28,083 nucleotides of DNA from a virus. Both the position numbers and the translations under genes were made by a program. How positions within the stretch are numbered: position 1 is the first letter of the stretch; each line of letters begins with the position of its first letter. Shown here one piece after another: positions 3,184 to 20,416 of this stretch. The DNA lies in IMG/VR virus record IMGVR_UViG_3300014499_000025, positions 1 to 28,083 of that record; one strand, written 5' to 3'. The notes beneath the pieces were generated by a model. The model was not told where the DNA came from, searched no databases, and saw only the letters and a program-made list of their open reading frames with translations.

Positions 3184-3507
3184 TCATAACCATTTTGCCT
3201 CGTCCTTTGCGTCATCAGCTTTCGCTCGCCACCATTCATCAAACGAAAGCGGCCAGCCGATTACTCCTTTAGGGATAATCCACTCGTTCTTGAATAGTGC
3301 ATTGACCGCGTCTCTATCTTCCACAGGAATAGGATTTTTGAATCCCTGAATATCCAATACTTCCGCTATCGTTAACGTAGAGGTGACAATTTTTAAGCGC
3401 CCATTATTTGCTTCATCGAATAACTGAGTTATTACATCCGCCCTGCCAACCTCATCCTTTAGCCAAGCCAAAAACGTGCAGGAATCAAAATAAATCACCT
3501 CAGACAT
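3184..3507 (-). CDS. PIN-domain toxin-like protein, C-terminally altered
   Basis: A 107-residue protein. The opening IYFDSCTFLAWLKDE carries the first catalytic aspartate of PIN ribonucleases, and TSTLTIAEVL with its glutamate is the second conserved element. PIN toxins usually have about 130-150 residues and end with a KxxDAIHxA helix followed by a TxD motif. Here the sequence leaves the family after about residue 83 and ends in a different tail, FDEWWRAKADDAKDEAK, without the third acidic site in its normal place. The gene overlaps the upstream chimeric ORF by 8 bp, as PIN toxins overlap their antitoxins. It is probably a truncated and inactive toxin with a substituted tail, although a short active form cannot be excluded. 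Its tail recurs at 6636-6704. Confidence 0.75.
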   Translation of the reverse strand: MSEVIYFDSCTFLAWLKDEVGRADVITQLFDEANNGRLKIVTSTLTIAEVLDIQGFKNPIPVEDRDAVNALFKNEWIIPKGVIGWPLSFDEWWRAKADDAKDEAKWL

Positions 3508-4396
3508 ATTGCTTCAGGATACCCCTCGTCATTTTGTAATCGGATACCCCTTCCGCAGGAACTATTGGAAAGATTTTATCTACCCTTATTGCATAAGGAA
3601 TGCCTTTGCCGGAGTATTTAATCAAGCCCTCTGCTTCTACACGTTGCTCATAGAATTTATATGCGCTGTCAAATACATCTCGCTCAGCAGCAGTACAAAG
3701 AATACGGGCGGAATATAAGGGTTCGATTATGGCAAACTCTGGTGTATCTTCACTATCAAGCACCAATAGTTTTCCTTCAATCGCCCCATATTCAGTAAAT
3801 GCGCCTTCAAGGACTACATTCACATTTCCTTTAATAGTCGCGCCTATATTTGTTGGTTTTTTATTGAACCATGCGCCACGCTCTACAAGAGAGAAAACAG
3901 CCTCTTTTCCTACCGGGCCACGGCCAAGATGTTTGCGGTCTTTCGCATGTTTATTCTTCTCTTTGCCACCAACATACGTCTCATCGGCTTCAACAGTCTT
4001 ACCCTCGCCGCCCATCGGTTCAATGTGCAGAACACGCATTGCTTCGCGCAAGCGATGAGCCATAAACCACGCTGTATTATACTGCACTTCAAGAATGCGG
4101 TGAAGCTGATGCGCTGATATGCCCTTTTTGCTAGAAGCCAAAAGATGCGCAGCCTGTAACCATTTCGTCAAAGGAACATGGCTAGACTCAAATACAGTGC
4201 CAACTTTTACCGTGAATTGCTTGCGGCAGTTATAGCATTTCCACAAACCGGGGCGCGTGGCTTTGCCCTTCAAACGATTAAGGCGTTCTACGCTTCCGCA
4301 ATGCGGGCAATTTGCGCCGTTCGGCCACAAGATACTTTCGAGGTGCAGGATTGCGGCCTCTTCATTGTGGAATTGGGGTTGAGATAATTTACTCAT
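3500..4396 (-). CDS. Chimera: IS1595-type transposase N-terminus fused to PIN-partner (antitoxin-like) C-terminus
   Basis: 298 residues made of two unrelated parts. Residues 1 to about 172 are an IS1595/ISXO2-like transposase: zinc ribbon with C30, C33, C54 and C57, a helix-turn-helix region, and the first catalytic aspartate D138 in VEADETYVGGKEKNKH. The second aspartate and the N..E motif are missing. From about residue 185 to 298 the sequence instead matches the protein usually encoded just upstream of PIN toxins: YGAIEGKL, RVEAEGLIKY and a closing RGIL. The PIN gene follows with an 8-bp overlap. The ORF runs through the junction without a stop, so a fusion protein could be made, with transposase DNA binding joined to an antitoxin C-terminus. 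Transposition activity is lost. The start ATG lacks a strong ribosome site (GAAAGG is 7-12 nt upstream). Confidence 0.75.
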   Translation of the reverse strand: MSKLSQPQFHNEEAAILHLESILWPNGANCPHCGSVERLNRLKGKATRPGLWKCYNCRKQFTVKVGTVFESSHVPLTKWLQAAHLLASSKKGISAHQLHRILEVQYNTAWFMAHRLREAMRVLHIEPMGGEGKTVEADETYVGGKEKNKHAKDRKHLGRGPVGKEAVFSLVERGAWFNKKPTNIGATIKGNVNVVLEGAFTEYGAIEGKLLVLDSEDTPEFAIIEPLYSARILCTAAERDVFDSAYKFYEQRVEAEGLIKYSGKGIPYAIRVDKIFPIVPAEGVSDYKMTRGILKQYV

Positions 4397-6704: not shown

Positions 6705-6889
6705 AATCCGAGAATGCGTTAACCAAGGGTTTTGTTTATTCCATGCATAAGTGCATGGTGCCTACCTTATCCTCATAAAAATGTCGCGGGTGTGGATGAT
6801 AAGCTGGCCTCATACGTTACCCTCCGCCAAACGCTTCATATCTGCAAGAGCGGCCTGGTTATCGTCAAAGAATCGGCATGGATTGATTT
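6705..6889 (-). other. Region of fragmentary minus-strand frames next to the transposon
   Basis: No complete gene is evident. On the minus strand a frame ending LADMKRLAEGNV stops at 6810 and overlaps by ATGA a 25-codon frame (6736-6813, MRPAYHPHPRHFYEDK...). A one-base shift near 6740 would join that frame to the NKQNPWLTHSRI stretch leading into 6636-6704. The overlaps look like an old leftward operon broken by small deletions and by the transposon inserted at 6890. I see no promoter here. Confidence 0.35.
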
Positions 6890-6902
6890 GGGATTTATAT
6901 AC
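6890..6902 (+). repeat. Left terminal inverted repeat of the transposon
   Basis: GGGATTTATATAC, directly followed by the transposase -35 (TTGACT, 6903-6908). It is the perfect inverse of 9348-9360. The GGG start is usual for IS1595-family ends. Confidence 0.8.
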
Positions 6903-6931
6903 TTGACTAACCAAGCGGCATGGGTTATCAT
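6903..6931 (+). promoter_or_regulatory. Transposase promoter
   Basis: TTGACT (6903-6908), a 17-bp spacer and TATCAT (6926-6931), 24 bp before the transposase ATG at 6956 with GGAG at 6947-6950. It probably drives the whole transposase-methyltransferase-endonuclease unit. Confidence 0.6.
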
Positions 6932-6955
6932 AATTCCATAATCAATGGAGACGTT

Positions 6956-7876
6956 ATGAAAACCGAAGCAAAAGACACCTTAGACGTTTTTGGATTTTTC
7001 AAGAAATTCCCCGACGAAAAAACGTGTGAAGATTTTATCATTGCCGCCCGCTGGCCGCGTGGTGTTTATTGCCCGCATTGCGGAAACTATAAGCTGTACC
7101 GCCTCGAAACGCAAAAGCGTTTTAAGTGTGCGGGTTGCCGCAAGCAGTTTTCAGTCCGTACCGGCTCTGTGCTGGCGGAAAGCAAAGTGACGCTGCAACA
7201 GTGGTTACTTGCCGGTTGGCTTCTCACTACTCACCGCAAGGGCTTTTCCAGTGTGCAGCTTGGCAAAACGCTGGGCGTGACGCAAAAGACGGCTTGGTTT
7301 CTCGCTCACCGCATACGCGATGCCTTTAGAGAGGAAGGTGGATTGTTCGACGGCACTGTTGAAGTAGACGAGACATATGTAGGCGGAAAAGAGAAGAATA
7401 AACACGCAAACAAAAAGCTACATGCCGGACGGGGAGCCGTTGGAAAAACCGCCGTCATGGGTATCAAAGAGCGCGGCGGCAAAGTGAAAGCCAAGCCGAT
7501 TAAGAATGCGGACGCTAAGACATTGCAGGGTGAAATCAGGCGGGTTGTAACTCCGGGTGCAACCGTATATACTGACGACCATCGCGGTTATCATGGATTG
7601 CTTGATTATCAGCATGAATCGGTAAAGCATTCCGTAGGTGAATATGTGAGGGGCATGGCTTCTACCAATGGCATAGAGTCCTTTTGGGCACTGCTGAAAA
7701 GAGGCTTATACGGGATTTATCACCAGATGAGCCCGGCGCATCTTCGCCGCTATGTGGATGAGTTTTCCTTCCGCCAGAATACTATCGGTCTCACTGACGA
7801 AGCCACTTTTGCCAAGATGTTCTATAACAGCAACGGTCGCCGTCTCACCTATAAGGAGTTGACCTGTGTCGCGTAA
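6956..7876 (+). CDS. IS1595-family (ISXO2-like) transposase
   Basis: 306 residues, full length for the family. It has an N-terminal zinc ribbon (C39, C42, C58, C61), a helix-turn-helix around residues 97-120, and a DDE-type catalytic domain with D138 (EVDETYVGGKEKNKH), D207 (VYTDDHRGY), H225 and the STNGIESFWALLKRG motif (N238/E241). All expected catalytic elements are present, so it is probably active. The frame is open to a GTG at 6920, but ATG 6956 has a GGAG site 5 nt before it. It overlaps the methyltransferase start by 11 bp. It shares the VDETYVGGKEKNKHA segment with the chimera at 3500-4396 but is otherwise clearly diverged from it. Confidence 0.92.
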   Translation: MKTEAKDTLDVFGFFKKFPDEKTCEDFIIAARWPRGVYCPHCGNYKLYRLETQKRFKCAGCRKQFSVRTGSVLAESKVTLQQWLLAGWLLTTHRKGFSSVQLGKTLGVTQKTAWFLAHRIRDAFREEGGLFDGTVEVDETYVGGKEKNKHANKKLHAGRGAVGKTAVMGIKERGGKVKAKPIKNADAKTLQGEIRRVVTPGATVYTDDHRGYHGLLDYQHESVKHSVGEYVRGMASTNGIESFWALLKRGLYGIYHQMSPAHLRRYVDEFSFRQNTIGLTDEATFAKMFYNSNGRRLTYKELTCVA

Positions 7877-8711
7877 CGCAACGCTCATAGAGCCTATTGA
7901 CGCGAGTTTTGATACCGTAATGCGGGCGATAGTACATGCGCCGGAGAAATTGCCGGAGAGAATCGCAACCCCTTCGCTGGCGCACTGGACGGGCAAAATT
8001 CATTGTATGGACTGCATAAAATTGATGAACGAATTGCCAGCGGGAAGTATAGGCGCAATCGTCACTTCCCCGCCGTACAATATCAAAAACAGCACGGGCA
8101 ATGGCATGAAAGACGGGCGGGGCGGTAAGTGGCCGCAAGCCGCGCTTATTAACGGCTACAAAGACCATGCCGATGATATGCCTTACCCTGAGTATGTCGC
8201 ATGGCAGCGCAAATGCCTTGATGCCATGATGCGCGTATTAAGGCCGGACGGCGCGATATTCTATAATCACAAGTGGCGCGTTCAAAACGGCTTATTGCAG
8301 GACAGGGCGGAAATCATCGCGGGCTTTCCAGTGCGCCAGATTATTATATGGAAGCGCAAGGGCGGTATAAACTTCAATGCAGGGTACTTTTTACCTACCT
8401 ATGAAGTGATTTACCTGATAGCCAAGCCGGACTTTAAGCTGTCTCCCAAAGCAAACGCGCAAGGGGATGTATGGGAGATACCGCAAGCGCGTGACAATAC
8501 ACACCCTGCCCCCTTCCCTATAGAACTGGCGCAACGCTGTATATCGGCAACCCAAGAGGGCGTTGTGCTTGATCCTTTTATGGGAAGTGGTACAACAGCC
8601 CTGGCCGCAGAGATACTTAACAGGGAATGGATAGGCGCTGAATTATCGAGTAACTACTGCAAAATGGCGGAAAAGCGGCTTAAAGAGCATCAAGAAACCA
8701 AGCTGATATAA
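7866..8711 (+). CDS. Type II DNA methyltransferase (N4/N6, beta class)
   Basis: 281 residues; modifies the exocyclic amino group of cytosine (N4) or adenine (N6) in DNA using S-adenosylmethionine. The catalytic motif TSPPYN is at 67-72 and the cofactor-binding motif DPFMGSGTT at 236-244. This order, with the target-recognition region between, is the beta class. Start codon GTG at 7866 is set by AAGGAG 7 nt upstream, inside the transposase gene. The stop overlaps the endonuclease ATG (TAATG), so the pair is coupled. Enzymes paired with MvaI/BcnI-type nucleases are N4-cytosine methyltransferases, which makes that the likelier activity here. It protects the site cut by the next protein. Confidence 0.9.
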   Translation: MSRNATLIEPIDASFDTVMRAIVHAPEKLPERIATPSLAHWTGKIHCMDCIKLMNELPAGSIGAIVTSPPYNIKNSTGNGMKDGRGGKWPQAALINGYKDHADDMPYPEYVAWQRKCLDAMMRVLRPDGAIFYNHKWRVQNGLLQDRAEIIAGFPVRQIIIWKRKGGINFNAGYFLPTYEVIYLIAKPDFKLSPKANAQGDVWEIPQARDNTHPAPFPIELAQRCISATQEGVVLDPFMGSGTTALAAEILNREWIGAELSSNYCKMAEKRLKEHQETKLI

Positions 8712-9355
8712 TGGCACCGCGAAAACTTGTAGGCACTATCCAGCCGCGCACCGGAACCGCGTGTTTTAAGAAAATCGCGGAAATCCTGAAAGCAGGAACA
8801 TGGGAATTTTCTGATGACGGCAAGTATAACGGCAACGGCGCTCCTGGTAGGTACTTAGAGGATTTGCTGGGCGTGAAAGCCAATAATGCCGATTCGCCTG
8901 ACATGGAAGGGTGGGAGATTAAGTTTCACGGCGGTAATTCCTTGCTTACGCTTTTCCATAAAGACCCTGAGCCTAGAGGCATAATCAGGACTATCGTACA
9001 TGACCATGGATGGGATGACGGCAAAGGCCGTATCAGCTTTCGGCATACGATAAGCGGCGAGACTTCACGGGGATTTTATGTGGTGAACGAAGAGGATAGG
9101 ATTGTCATACGCAATCGCCATAAAGATACCGCCGTCCAGCACTGGACGCATAATACTCTGTTTAATGCCTTTGCCGCAAAACTGCGCCGTCTCATAGTGG
9201 TAAGTGGCAGCATGATGAAAAACCCGCGCCGTGTCGTCTATGAAGAAGCTACCGCTTATTGGGAGCCTGACATAAGGGGATTTTCAAAGGCAGTCGCGGA
9301 CGGTCTTTTCTGTGTGGACTTTGACGCACGGACGCAAGGTGGTCGTGGTATATAA
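8711..9355 (+). CDS. Type II restriction endonuclease, MvaI/BcnI family
   Basis: 214 residues. The sequence GNGAPGRYLEDLLGVKANN, then SPDMEGWEIKFHG, is the core of the MvaI/BcnI family: D64 - E69 - K71 gives the metal-binding D-x4-E-x-K set, with the spacing I recall for MvaI (D50, E55, K57). These enzymes cut short CC-GG-centred sites, MvaI as a monomer; the exact site here cannot be read from sequence. It starts inside the methyltransferase stop (TAATG), and its stop codon lies in the right terminal repeat of the transposon, so the C-terminal GRGI is encoded by the element end. It appears complete and therefore potentially active. Confidence 0.85.
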   Translation: MAPRKLVGTIQPRTGTACFKKIAEILKAGTWEFSDDGKYNGNGAPGRYLEDLLGVKANNADSPDMEGWEIKFHGGNSLLTLFHKDPEPRGIIRTIVHDHGWDDGKGRISFRHTISGETSRGFYVVNEEDRIVIRNRHKDTAVQHWTHNTLFNAFAAKLRRLIVVSGSMMKNPRRVVYEEATAYWEPDIRGFSKAVADGLFCVDFDARTQGGRGI

Positions 9356-9360
9356 ATCCC
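9348..9360 (-). repeat. Right terminal inverted repeat of the transposon
   Basis: GTATATAAATCCC is the exact inverse of 6890-6902. It contains the TAA stop of the endonuclease gene (9353-9355). Confidence 0.8.
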
Positions 9361-9369
9361 ATATATTTT

Positions 9370-9792
9370 ATGAAAATACCAGAAAACCAAAGGACAGAAG
9401 TGCTAAAAATGCTGAAAGAGGGAATGCCAGATAATGCCGTTGCTGAATTTTATGGCGTCACCAGACAAACAATCGGAAATATGCGCAGAAAAGCAGGATT
9501 ATATGTAAAATATAAACTGCCGAATAAAGAAATGTGGAAAGAACATCTTAAGGTATCAAAACTAACCGCAAATGCCATATATCATGGCGTCTTAATACCA
9601 GAGCCTTGCGAGATATGCGGGGTATTCGGAAAGAATGATAAGGGAAAGCGCAAGGTCCATGCTCATCATGACGACTATAATAAACCCTTAAGCGTGCGCT
9701 GGCTTTGTGAAAATCATCACAGAGAATGGCATCTGACCAACAATGCCATTCCATGCTCATTCTTGAATCCGTGTCATATATCGAAAATTTGA
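9370..9792 (+). CDS. HTH-HNH-type phage protein (possible homing endonuclease)
   Basis: 140 residues. Residues 5-38 form a resolvase-like helix-turn-helix (DNAVAEFYGVTRQTIGNMRR). Residues 77-120 hold a zinc-bound HNH-like core: CEICG, then KVHAHHDDYNKPLSVRWLC and ENHHREWH. Many phage proteins of this make-up are site-specific or homing nucleases, others are only DNA-binding. It begins 9 bp after the transposon end with no good ribosome site, perhaps because the transposon separated it from its leader. Its end overlaps a remnant of a second VapE-like gene, fitting insertion of a homing-type gene into a replication gene. AT-rich codon use sets it apart from the preceding restriction genes. Confidence 0.75.
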   Translation: MKIPENQRTEVLKMLKEGMPDNAVAEFYGVTRQTIGNMRRKAGLYVKYKLPNKEMWKEHLKVSKLTANAIYHGVLIPEPCEICGVFGKNDKGKRKVHAHHDDYNKPLSVRWLCENHHREWHLTNNAIPCSFLNPCHISKI

Positions 9793-19711: not shown

Positions 19712-20416
19712 TCAATCCGAGAGTGCCTTATCAGGTAGGCATTTTTCCTGAGATTCTAATTGTTTGGCTTTACGTTTTACCCAAGCTGCTTTTCTGGATT
19801 CAGATTGCTGTTTGCGATAATTTTCATCTTGCCAGTTTGCCTTTCTTTTAGTTGATTGTGTTTGTCTGTGTTCTTCATTTTTCCACATTTTCTTGAACGC
19901 AGTGGATTTTTTTTCTTTATATTCAGTAGATTCCATAGCCTTTTTGAGGGATATGGATCGACGTTTCTGTAACTCAGGATCGGCACAAGCGGCTTGATGA
20001 GATATTCGTCTACGTTCTCTAAATTCAGGGTCTTGCCAAAGTTTTTTGCGAATAATAGATAATTTTTCCTTGGTTTCTTTTGAGGGGGTTGTGCCAGATT
20101 TTGCTGCTTCCGTCAAATTGTAGCTATTAGGGATTACTGCCAATAATTTTATTTCTGCTGCATTTAAAGCGACTTGTAATTGATCTTTTGGAACAAGAGA
20201 AAGATCAACGGCAACCTTAAATACAAAGGCTTTTTCGCCATATTTATTCCAAGCCCTTTGCAGATGAGAATTTCTATGAGCATTCTTGCGTAAGTGCCAA
20301 TGATGGCTATGCCACCTTCGCCTTATGTTAATCGTTTGCCCGATATAGATTTTCCCAGAAATAGTATTGGTGATCGTATAAATACCGGGAAAATTTAATC
20401 CGCTATTTGCAGTCAT
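19712..20416 (-). CDS. GIY-YIG homing endonuclease with 17-residue repeats
   Basis: 234 residues. The GIY-YIG nuclease domain spans about residues 10-95: GIYTITNTISGKIYIGQT with the GIY and YIG triads, R32-R34 region, and H/N-rich HSHHWHLRKNAHRNSHLQRAWNKYG. Residues 121-222 consist of six 17-residue units (patterns ..RKKLWQDPEFRERRR, ..KKAMESTEYKEKKS, ..RKANWQDENYRKQQS), resembling NUMOD-type DNA-binding repeats but longer than usual. The gene is antisense to the virion operon, between scaffold and coat, as expected for a free-standing mobile endonuclease. AT-rich codon use marks it as foreign. Confidence 0.88.
   Translation of the reverse strand: MTANSGLNFPGIYTITNTISGKIYIGQTINIRRRWHSHHWHLRKNAHRNSHLQRAWNKYGEKAFVFKVAVDLSLVPKDQLQVALNAAEIKLLAVIPNSYNLTEAAKSGTTPSKETKEKLSIIRKKLWQDPEFRERRRISHQAACADPELQKRRSISLKKAMESTEYKEKKSTAFKKMWKNEEHRQTQSTKRKANWQDENYRKQQSESRKAAWVKRKAKQLESQEKCLPDKALSD

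Follow-up and report, generated by a model that had tools for sequence, protein, structure and literature searches.

Restriction-modification (RM) systems are known to move between genomes, and the movement of small operons is usually ascribed to larger islands or to flanking pairs of insertion sequences (ISs). Among type II enzymes, MvaI has a CCNGG-like site. The site of BcnI is CC^SGG (PMC4081073). IS1595-family members with passenger genes (tIS) include the mobilizable elements MTnSag1 and tISCpe8, the second cited as a lincomycin-resistance element (PMC5704250); that passenger genes are known in the family had been stated in an initial annotation of the DNA studied here. Tn7-like transposons often carry defence cargo, most commonly RM systems (PMC8649781), and RM complexes flanked by ISs in composite forms have been described (PMC3031569). 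For the IS1595 family, ISApl4 has 14-bp ends and preferably A/T-rich 8-bp repeats (PMC12561309), and in Acidithiobacillus caldus an hsdMSR cluster lies upstream of IS200/IS605 and IS1595 elements (PMC10214660). Here, we report an IS1595-family element with RM genes at positions 6890 to 9360 of the IMG/VR virus contig IMGVR_UViG_3300014499_000025 (28,083 bases, the whole stretch analyzed, hereafter the window). We read it, with a probability of about 0.85, as an IS1595-family transposon that brought a type II MvaI/BcnI-like RM operon into a tailed phage as its cargo and has since decayed there.

Like MTnSag1 and tISCpe8, the elements described here combine an IS1595 DDE transposase, inverted ends, 8-bp duplications (perfect in relatives of the window element), and internal passengers (PMC5704250); unlike them, the passengers are RM operons, partly joined to the transposase with a common leader. 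Both these elements and Tn7-like transposons are families often found with RM cargo (PMC8649781), whereas in Tn7-like transposons RM is one of many cargo kinds moved by a multigene transposition system, and here the cargo stands directly behind a single transposase gene in elements with a median length of 2.6 kb (49 bounded elements). IS-flanked RM complexes are likewise mobile RM systems linked to insertion sequences (PMC3031569), with the operon between two IS copies and not, as here, inside the ends of one element. The window element shares a PF15515 endonuclease and a TSPPY methyltransferase with MvaI/BcnI type II RM systems and differs from them in that its endonuclease is without the C-terminus and that methyltransferases adjacent to transposases are N-terminally extended. 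No report of RM operons inside IS1595 ends was found in the literature searched, as covered by excerpts and without the founding family paper, which is consistent with the remark in the initial annotation that no described member with a full restriction pair was known.

The window element and its bounded relatives

The element consists of transposase, methyltransferase, and endonuclease genes between matching 13-bp ends. Its features are given below, in part by comparison with an intact cousin, locus L015 of a Nitrosomonas metagenome-assembled genome (MAG).

6882 to 6889, no strand: octamer attgattt on the left flank, presumably an old target duplication (flank comparison)
6890 to 6902, plus strand: outer 13 bp of the left terminal inverted repeat; over 6890 to 6911, 21 of 22 bases agree with the left end of L015
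6903 to 6931, plus strand: sigma-70-like promoter match TTGACT-17-TATCAT, -35 box in the inner left repeat
6956 to 7876, plus strand: IS1595-family transposase, 306 aa, from ATG 6956 (in-frame ATG also at 6920)
7866 to 7943, plus strand: leader segment VSRNATLIEPIDASFDTVMRAIVHAP, common to non-homologous cargo proteins in part of the family
7866 to 8711, plus strand: N4/N6 DNA methyltransferase, 281 aa, GTG start; the conserved core follows an N-terminal extension of ~40 aa
8711 to 9355, plus strand: MvaI/BcnI-type endonuclease (PF15515), 214 aa; C-terminal ~31 residues absent relative to L015
9340 to 9350, plus strand: junction of a ~105-bp deletion relative to L015 (alignment; breakpoint uncertain by a few bases)
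9348 to 9360, minus strand: right terminal inverted repeat, cut back to its outer 13 bp, with the endonuclease stop codon (9353 to 9355) inside
9361 to 9368, no strand: right flanking octamer atatattt, 6/8 shared with the left octamer

The transposase has the ISXO2-like DDE domain and zinc ribbon of the IS1595 family (PF12762, 8.4e-44; PF12760, 4.1e-14; NF033547, 193 bits against a cutoff of 75). The methyltransferase (PF01555, 3.5e-39; TSPPY motif) is 63 to 81% identical to those of six aligned relatives, and the endonuclease matches R.MvaI at E 7e-11 with the window sequence and 1e-25 with a profile of six endonucleases. All three reading frames are open and overlap by 11 bp (transposase/methyltransferase) and 1 bp (methyltransferase/endonuclease). 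Both cargo genes lie inside the element's own ends, as they do in L014 to L016, and the surroundings are phage-like, with VapE-like, terminase, and P22-like portal proteins. The promoter match is weak and to the consensus only (10 of 12 positions; one such match found against a shuffle mean of 0.6).

The ends are perfect 13-bp inverted repeats (GGGATTTATATAC at 6890 to 6902, its reverse complement at 9348 to 9360) that reach 14 bp when T6889 and A9361 are counted; the 13-bp sequence has no further occurrence in the window. Fifty left ends, those of 49 genome elements and of the window, have the majority consensus GGGAATTATATACTTAACTAGCC, from which the window shows small differences, and the outer 13 bp at both window ends agree with the family ends; we accept the repeats as real ends because they are the same as those of family members.

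L015 is 78% (transposase), 81% (methyltransferase), and 75% (endonuclease) identical to the window, with ends matching at 20/20, a perfect 8-bp duplication (ttattttt on both sides), and an endonuclease of 245 aa. DNA similarity between the two (69%) spans 6887 to 9342, ends near the repeats, and is confined to the element. Among 85 genomes of its genus, its own included, G078 has the empty site: the left (92%) and right (88%) flanks adjoin and overlap by exactly 8 bp, hence a single uninserted target. G074 has the same 8-bp overlap, with a separate insertion further out in the left flank. For L015, though not for the window insertion, this shows that transposase and cargo were inserted as one unit. 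L014, L015, and L016 have the same three genes, 20/20 ends, and 8/8 duplications, and together with the window and the viral locus L102 they form one transposase clade with the same cargo (SH-aLRT, 100; quick tree). Less exact cases were seen at L077, where the methyltransferase carries a fused Mrr-like domain (of 79 genomes, G111 and G113 have adjoining flanks with small offsets, and the flanks in G112 are separated by about 265 bp), and at L029 (near-empty sites at 72 to 77% identity, not base exact). The initial annotation had proposed an IS1595-type transposon with type II RM cargo inside a phage, with those repeats and gene overlaps, and this is borne out by the domains, the family ends, and the comparison with L015; searches that it had suggested, for other copies ending at such repeats and for empty sites, gave positive results for this cousin element.

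Deletion in the endonuclease gene and readings of the locus

Relative to L015, a 105-bp alignment gap removes the last ~31 residues of the window endonuclease and the inner right repeat. The lost stretch is the RNHGTKFR region and onward, a tail that is kept in all five aligned relatives and in the viral loci L102, L107, L183, and L186 and that can be aligned to the C-terminal ends of R.MvaI and R.BcnI. A histidine within it makes a DNA contact in BcnI. Coverage of the endonuclease profile ends at position 198 of 227 in the window and at 227 in L015, and the window copy, lacking the conserved C-terminal stretch, does not encode a complete endonuclease. All residues that are invariant in the alignment of six endonucleases are retained in the window protein, P63, D64, E69, and K71 among them. 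The stop codon inside the right repeat, whose position had been given correctly, is a deletion scar and not the sign of a tight unit that it had been taken for, and the RM system had been called complete in error. From its lost tail, the endonuclease is probably inactive; the methyltransferase, full length, is likely functional; and the mobility of this copy is doubtful. Addiction and phage exclusion, which had been suggested for the window element, both need a working endonuclease and are not supported for this copy. Nor is a cut-and-paste mechanism, since a review suggests that IS1595-type elements might be excised replicatively, via a circular form (PMC5704250); the present data decide neither way.

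The three genes of intact relatives run in the same direction and mostly overlap, and they would probably be expressed as one operon from a promoter in the left end. Such an element inserts as a unit between ~20-bp inverted ends, duplicating 8 bp of AT-rich target, as 8/8 duplications and an empty site show for relatives. The window copy would have been inserted between genes of a tailed phage. A later loss of ~105 bp (compared with L015) would have taken away the inner right end together with the C-terminus of the endonuclease, and drift would have left the target duplication at 6/8. Since the methyltransferase is still full length, the likeliest present role would be that of a phage-borne modification enzyme that can shield the phage genome against restriction enzymes acting at the same site.

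The repeats and flanks of the window, taken alone, would not prove a transposon. Inverted 13-mer pairs 1 to 4 kb apart number 17 in the window and 0 to 7 in 60 dinucleotide shuffles, so that chance as the source of one such pair is not negligible, and the flanking octamers are identical at only 6/8 positions, a level reached by 4.6% of random pairs of AT-rich window octamers; the six matches reported initially are there, as weak evidence of target duplication on their own. A phage-acquired RM operon beside an unrelated IS1595 remnant, with coincidental repeats, could look like this. The relatives argue strongly to the contrary, with the same genes between ends of the same kind in L014, L015, L016, and the viral loci L107 and L186 (all 8/8) and with the empty site of L015, which together refute this explanation for them and make it very improbable for the window. 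It is unlikely, if less remote, that the window element is a fully working RM transposon whose short endonuclease is active and whose 13-bp right end suffices: the three open frames, the kept invariant residues, and the outer 13 bp matching the family fit such an element, but the RNHGTKFR stretch kept in five relatives and matched in R.MvaI and R.BcnI is gone, the right end is reduced to 13 bp against 20/20 in L014, L015, and L016, and the flanks have drifted.

The decayed-transposon explanation could be extended, as a possible though doubtful addition to it, by supposing that the phage keeps the element only for its methyltransferase and that loss of the endonuclease was favoured. In both the window and the viral locus L012, the methyltransferase frame is open and the adjacent endonuclease is damaged, and L101 has a solitary methyltransferase in a phage contig; full-length or nearly full-length endonucleases in viral L102, L107, L183, L186, L105, L106, and L185 mean that this would be no rule. 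Several points weigh against decay of an inserted transposon copy: the target duplication of the window is imperfect (6/8), the deletion is seen in a single metagenome contig, where it may reflect an uncommon variant or a misassembly, the inactivity of the truncated endonuclease is inferred only, and the exact empty site of the window phage was not found. In that search, L013 has a vapE product 68% identical and no transposase hit in 13 kb, but its following genes differ from those of the window phage; a terminase query gave L094 at 79%, with only 1.6 kb preceding the terminase; and a query with the downstream gene gave relatives at 36 to 56% only. No nucleotide-level copy of the window element was found elsewhere (the phage collection gave only a methyltransferase stretch at 72%), and the window endonuclease alone as a query had no match in viral contigs.

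Restriction cargo and leader segment in one IS1595 neighbourhood

Genome loci were collected with a three-sequence transposase profile, and the best 80 of at least 509 confirmed loci were analyzed; the query alignment included two restriction-bearing transposases, so the fractions below describe one IS1595 neighbourhood and not the whole family. At 49 of the 80 loci, at least 11 matching end bases and an 8/8 duplication were found, the duplications being A/T-rich (335 of 392 letters). A DNA methyltransferase gene lies downstream of the transposase in at least 30 of the 80 (a lower bound, as not all open reading frames [ORFs] of the remaining 50 were scanned). Pfam recognizes the methyltransferase or the partner nuclease in 26 of the 30, and four (L019, L049, L050, and L076) were assigned by motif or sequence similarity only. 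The nuclease part was recognized by Pfam or PADLOC in 18 of the 30, two of them weakly, and falls into at least eight domain types; several cargo nucleases may share the distant PD-(D/E)XK fold, so domain types are counted here and not origins.

MvaI_BcnI nuclease: L014, L015, L016, L035, L043
PDDEXK_11 with a D12 methyltransferase: L066, L088
RE_HaeIII: L070, L072
GIY-YIG: L059
HNH fusions: L061, L079
Mrr-like fusions: L074 (below the Pfam cutoff), L077
GmrSD/HNH: L081
Type IIG-like: L064 (Eco57I methylase family, nuclease part below cutoff), L087 (PADLOC)
PADLOC REase_II with DUF4928: L090

Twenty of the 30 methyltransferase loci have 8/8 duplications and two more have long ends; at the other eight (L035, L038, L039, L050, L060, L070, L072, and L079) both ends were not resolved, so cargo inside the element is not shown for them. 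One small transposase family carries RM operons of many types, often with base-exact bounds, in chromosomes and in virus contigs, and these elements are a direct, testable vehicle for the spread of RM systems and the uptake of methyltransferases by phages.

At six more of the 30 loci (L018, L019, L038, L040, L049, and L057), a C5 methyltransferase is accompanied by an unnamed protein family of ~245 aa (member at L018:7882-8613). The family had no Pfam hit (all six members), no PADLOC hit (L018, L057, and L040 scanned), and no PDB sequence hit (best E, 0.19), and its model had no Foldseek hit better than E 0.044. In VIA, the model matched the restriction endonucleases 3ndh (Z, 8.3) and HinP1I (Z, 7.2), with restriction endonucleases in the first 32 rows; these Z values may reflect only a common arrangement, and the proteins are possibly an unnamed endonuclease family. 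L029 carries type I hsdM and hsdS genes, for which no hsdR was observed, at 6906-9733 between 20/20 ends with an 8/8 duplication; two other sites of its genome match part of its right flank at 100%. In the IS1595 element at L023:6914-8392, the second cargo gene encodes a PemK/MazF-like toxin (PF02452). Two 1451-bp IS1595 elements in one MAG (L082 and L093) have different 8/8 duplications, aaagagaa and aattaatt, which suggests recent transposition.

On a transposase tree (92 sequences, quick search, SH-aLRT only), MvaI/BcnI cargo falls in two separate clades. With cargo sorted into five classes, including "other", the tree requires 18 changes against 50.7 in shuffles; therefore cargo stays with the transposase lineage yet is repeatedly replaced.

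In 54 of 91 loci, an ORF of at least 80 aa has its start near the transposase stop (-20 to +15 bp); -8 (22) and -4 (15) are the commonest offsets. The commonest identified cargo other than methyltransferases comprises 22 aligned proteins (14 P63C, 3 RhuM, 1 KilA-N, and 1 Rha). A profile of the first 30 residues of 21 of these (the KilA-N one left out) was tested on 33 N-termini of other cargo classes and 1673 control ORFs. Seven of the 33 exceeded the best control (7.9 bits), namely L003 (KilA-N; 30.9), L014 (27.2), the window (27.0), L015 (20.6), L070 (16.6), L016 (12.2), and L072 (8.8), and 26 did not. The seven represent three lineages: L003, whose transposase lies inside the training clade on the tree; the window clade; and L070/L072, a near-identical pair of D12 methyltransferases. 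As a regular expression, the leader motif was present in 7 of 15 against 0 of 21 (Fisher p, 0.0008; the motif is post hoc, and L102 and L103 were both counted), so the profile, built from one cargo class and applied to others, is the proper test. None of 21 methyltransferase relatives without a transposase hit has this post hoc motif, and most start near the conserved core.

Judged by these N-termini, part of the family has a leader common to non-homologous cargo, an unusual and easily tested feature whose role could be coupling or capture by in-frame fusion. We put forward only tentatively the wider idea that this IS1595 branch is a dedicated exchange platform for RM and phage-regulator-like genes, in which cargo would be captured in frame behind a leader overlapping the transposase stop, so that N4 and D12 methyltransferases, KilA-N, and P63C/RhuM proteins would get the same N-terminal tag, coupling cargo to transposase by translation or protein contact.

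Elements in virus contigs

Elements of the RM-carrying IS1595 kind sit in virus contigs, although some IMG/VR contigs may be misassigned. Four distinct virus contigs besides the window carry the transposase, methyltransferase, and full-length MvaI/BcnI endonuclease: L107 and L186, with 8/8 duplications; L183, with 6/8; and L102, with 18/20 ends and no duplication (1/8). Nearly full-length endonuclease matches with partial transposase hits occur in L105, L106, and L185; neither these three nor L012 gave a credible pair of ends. A different methyltransferase (PF01555) is paired with a PADLOC type II endonuclease (E 3e-45) in L005, between 18/20 ends with an 8/8 duplication.

All nine virus loci retrieved with the endonuclease profile have an IS1595 transposase hit upstream (partial in L184, L185, L187, and L188); they are eight distinct loci, L181/L182 sharing contigs with L102/L103, which are identical. 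That the endonuclease always stands beside an IS1595 transposase is ruled out by L108, L109, and L111, distant endonuclease hits (27 to 30%) without a transposase hit. A rule that phage copies always lose the endonuclease, drawn from the window and L012, was rejected given the full-length genes in L102, L107, L183, and L186. The solitary methyltransferase of phage contig L101 (3022-3801) is 83% identical to that of the window and lies among phage-like genes; no transposase hit, endonuclease hit, or leader was found in L101. Phages and RM-carrying IS1595 transposons may exchange the methyltransferase gene.

The same IS1595 element stands at both ends of contig IMGVR_UViG_3300044470_000095 (L010 and L011) with the same flanking octamers, probably one copy seen via terminal redundancy; on the opposite strand, L010 has a gene for a trypsin-like peptidase. 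A second IS1595-type transposase ORF in the window (3187 to 4396, minus strand) looks like a chimeric remnant: its catalytic domain is matched at the start only (positions 5 to 48 of 153), its last ~129 residues match nothing in Pfam, and its end shares 8 bp with a PIN-like ORF (below cutoff). Elsewhere, the window phage has genes for a Dam-like methyltransferase (1211 to 1708; PF05869) and a GIY-YIG endonuclease (19712 to 20416, minus strand).

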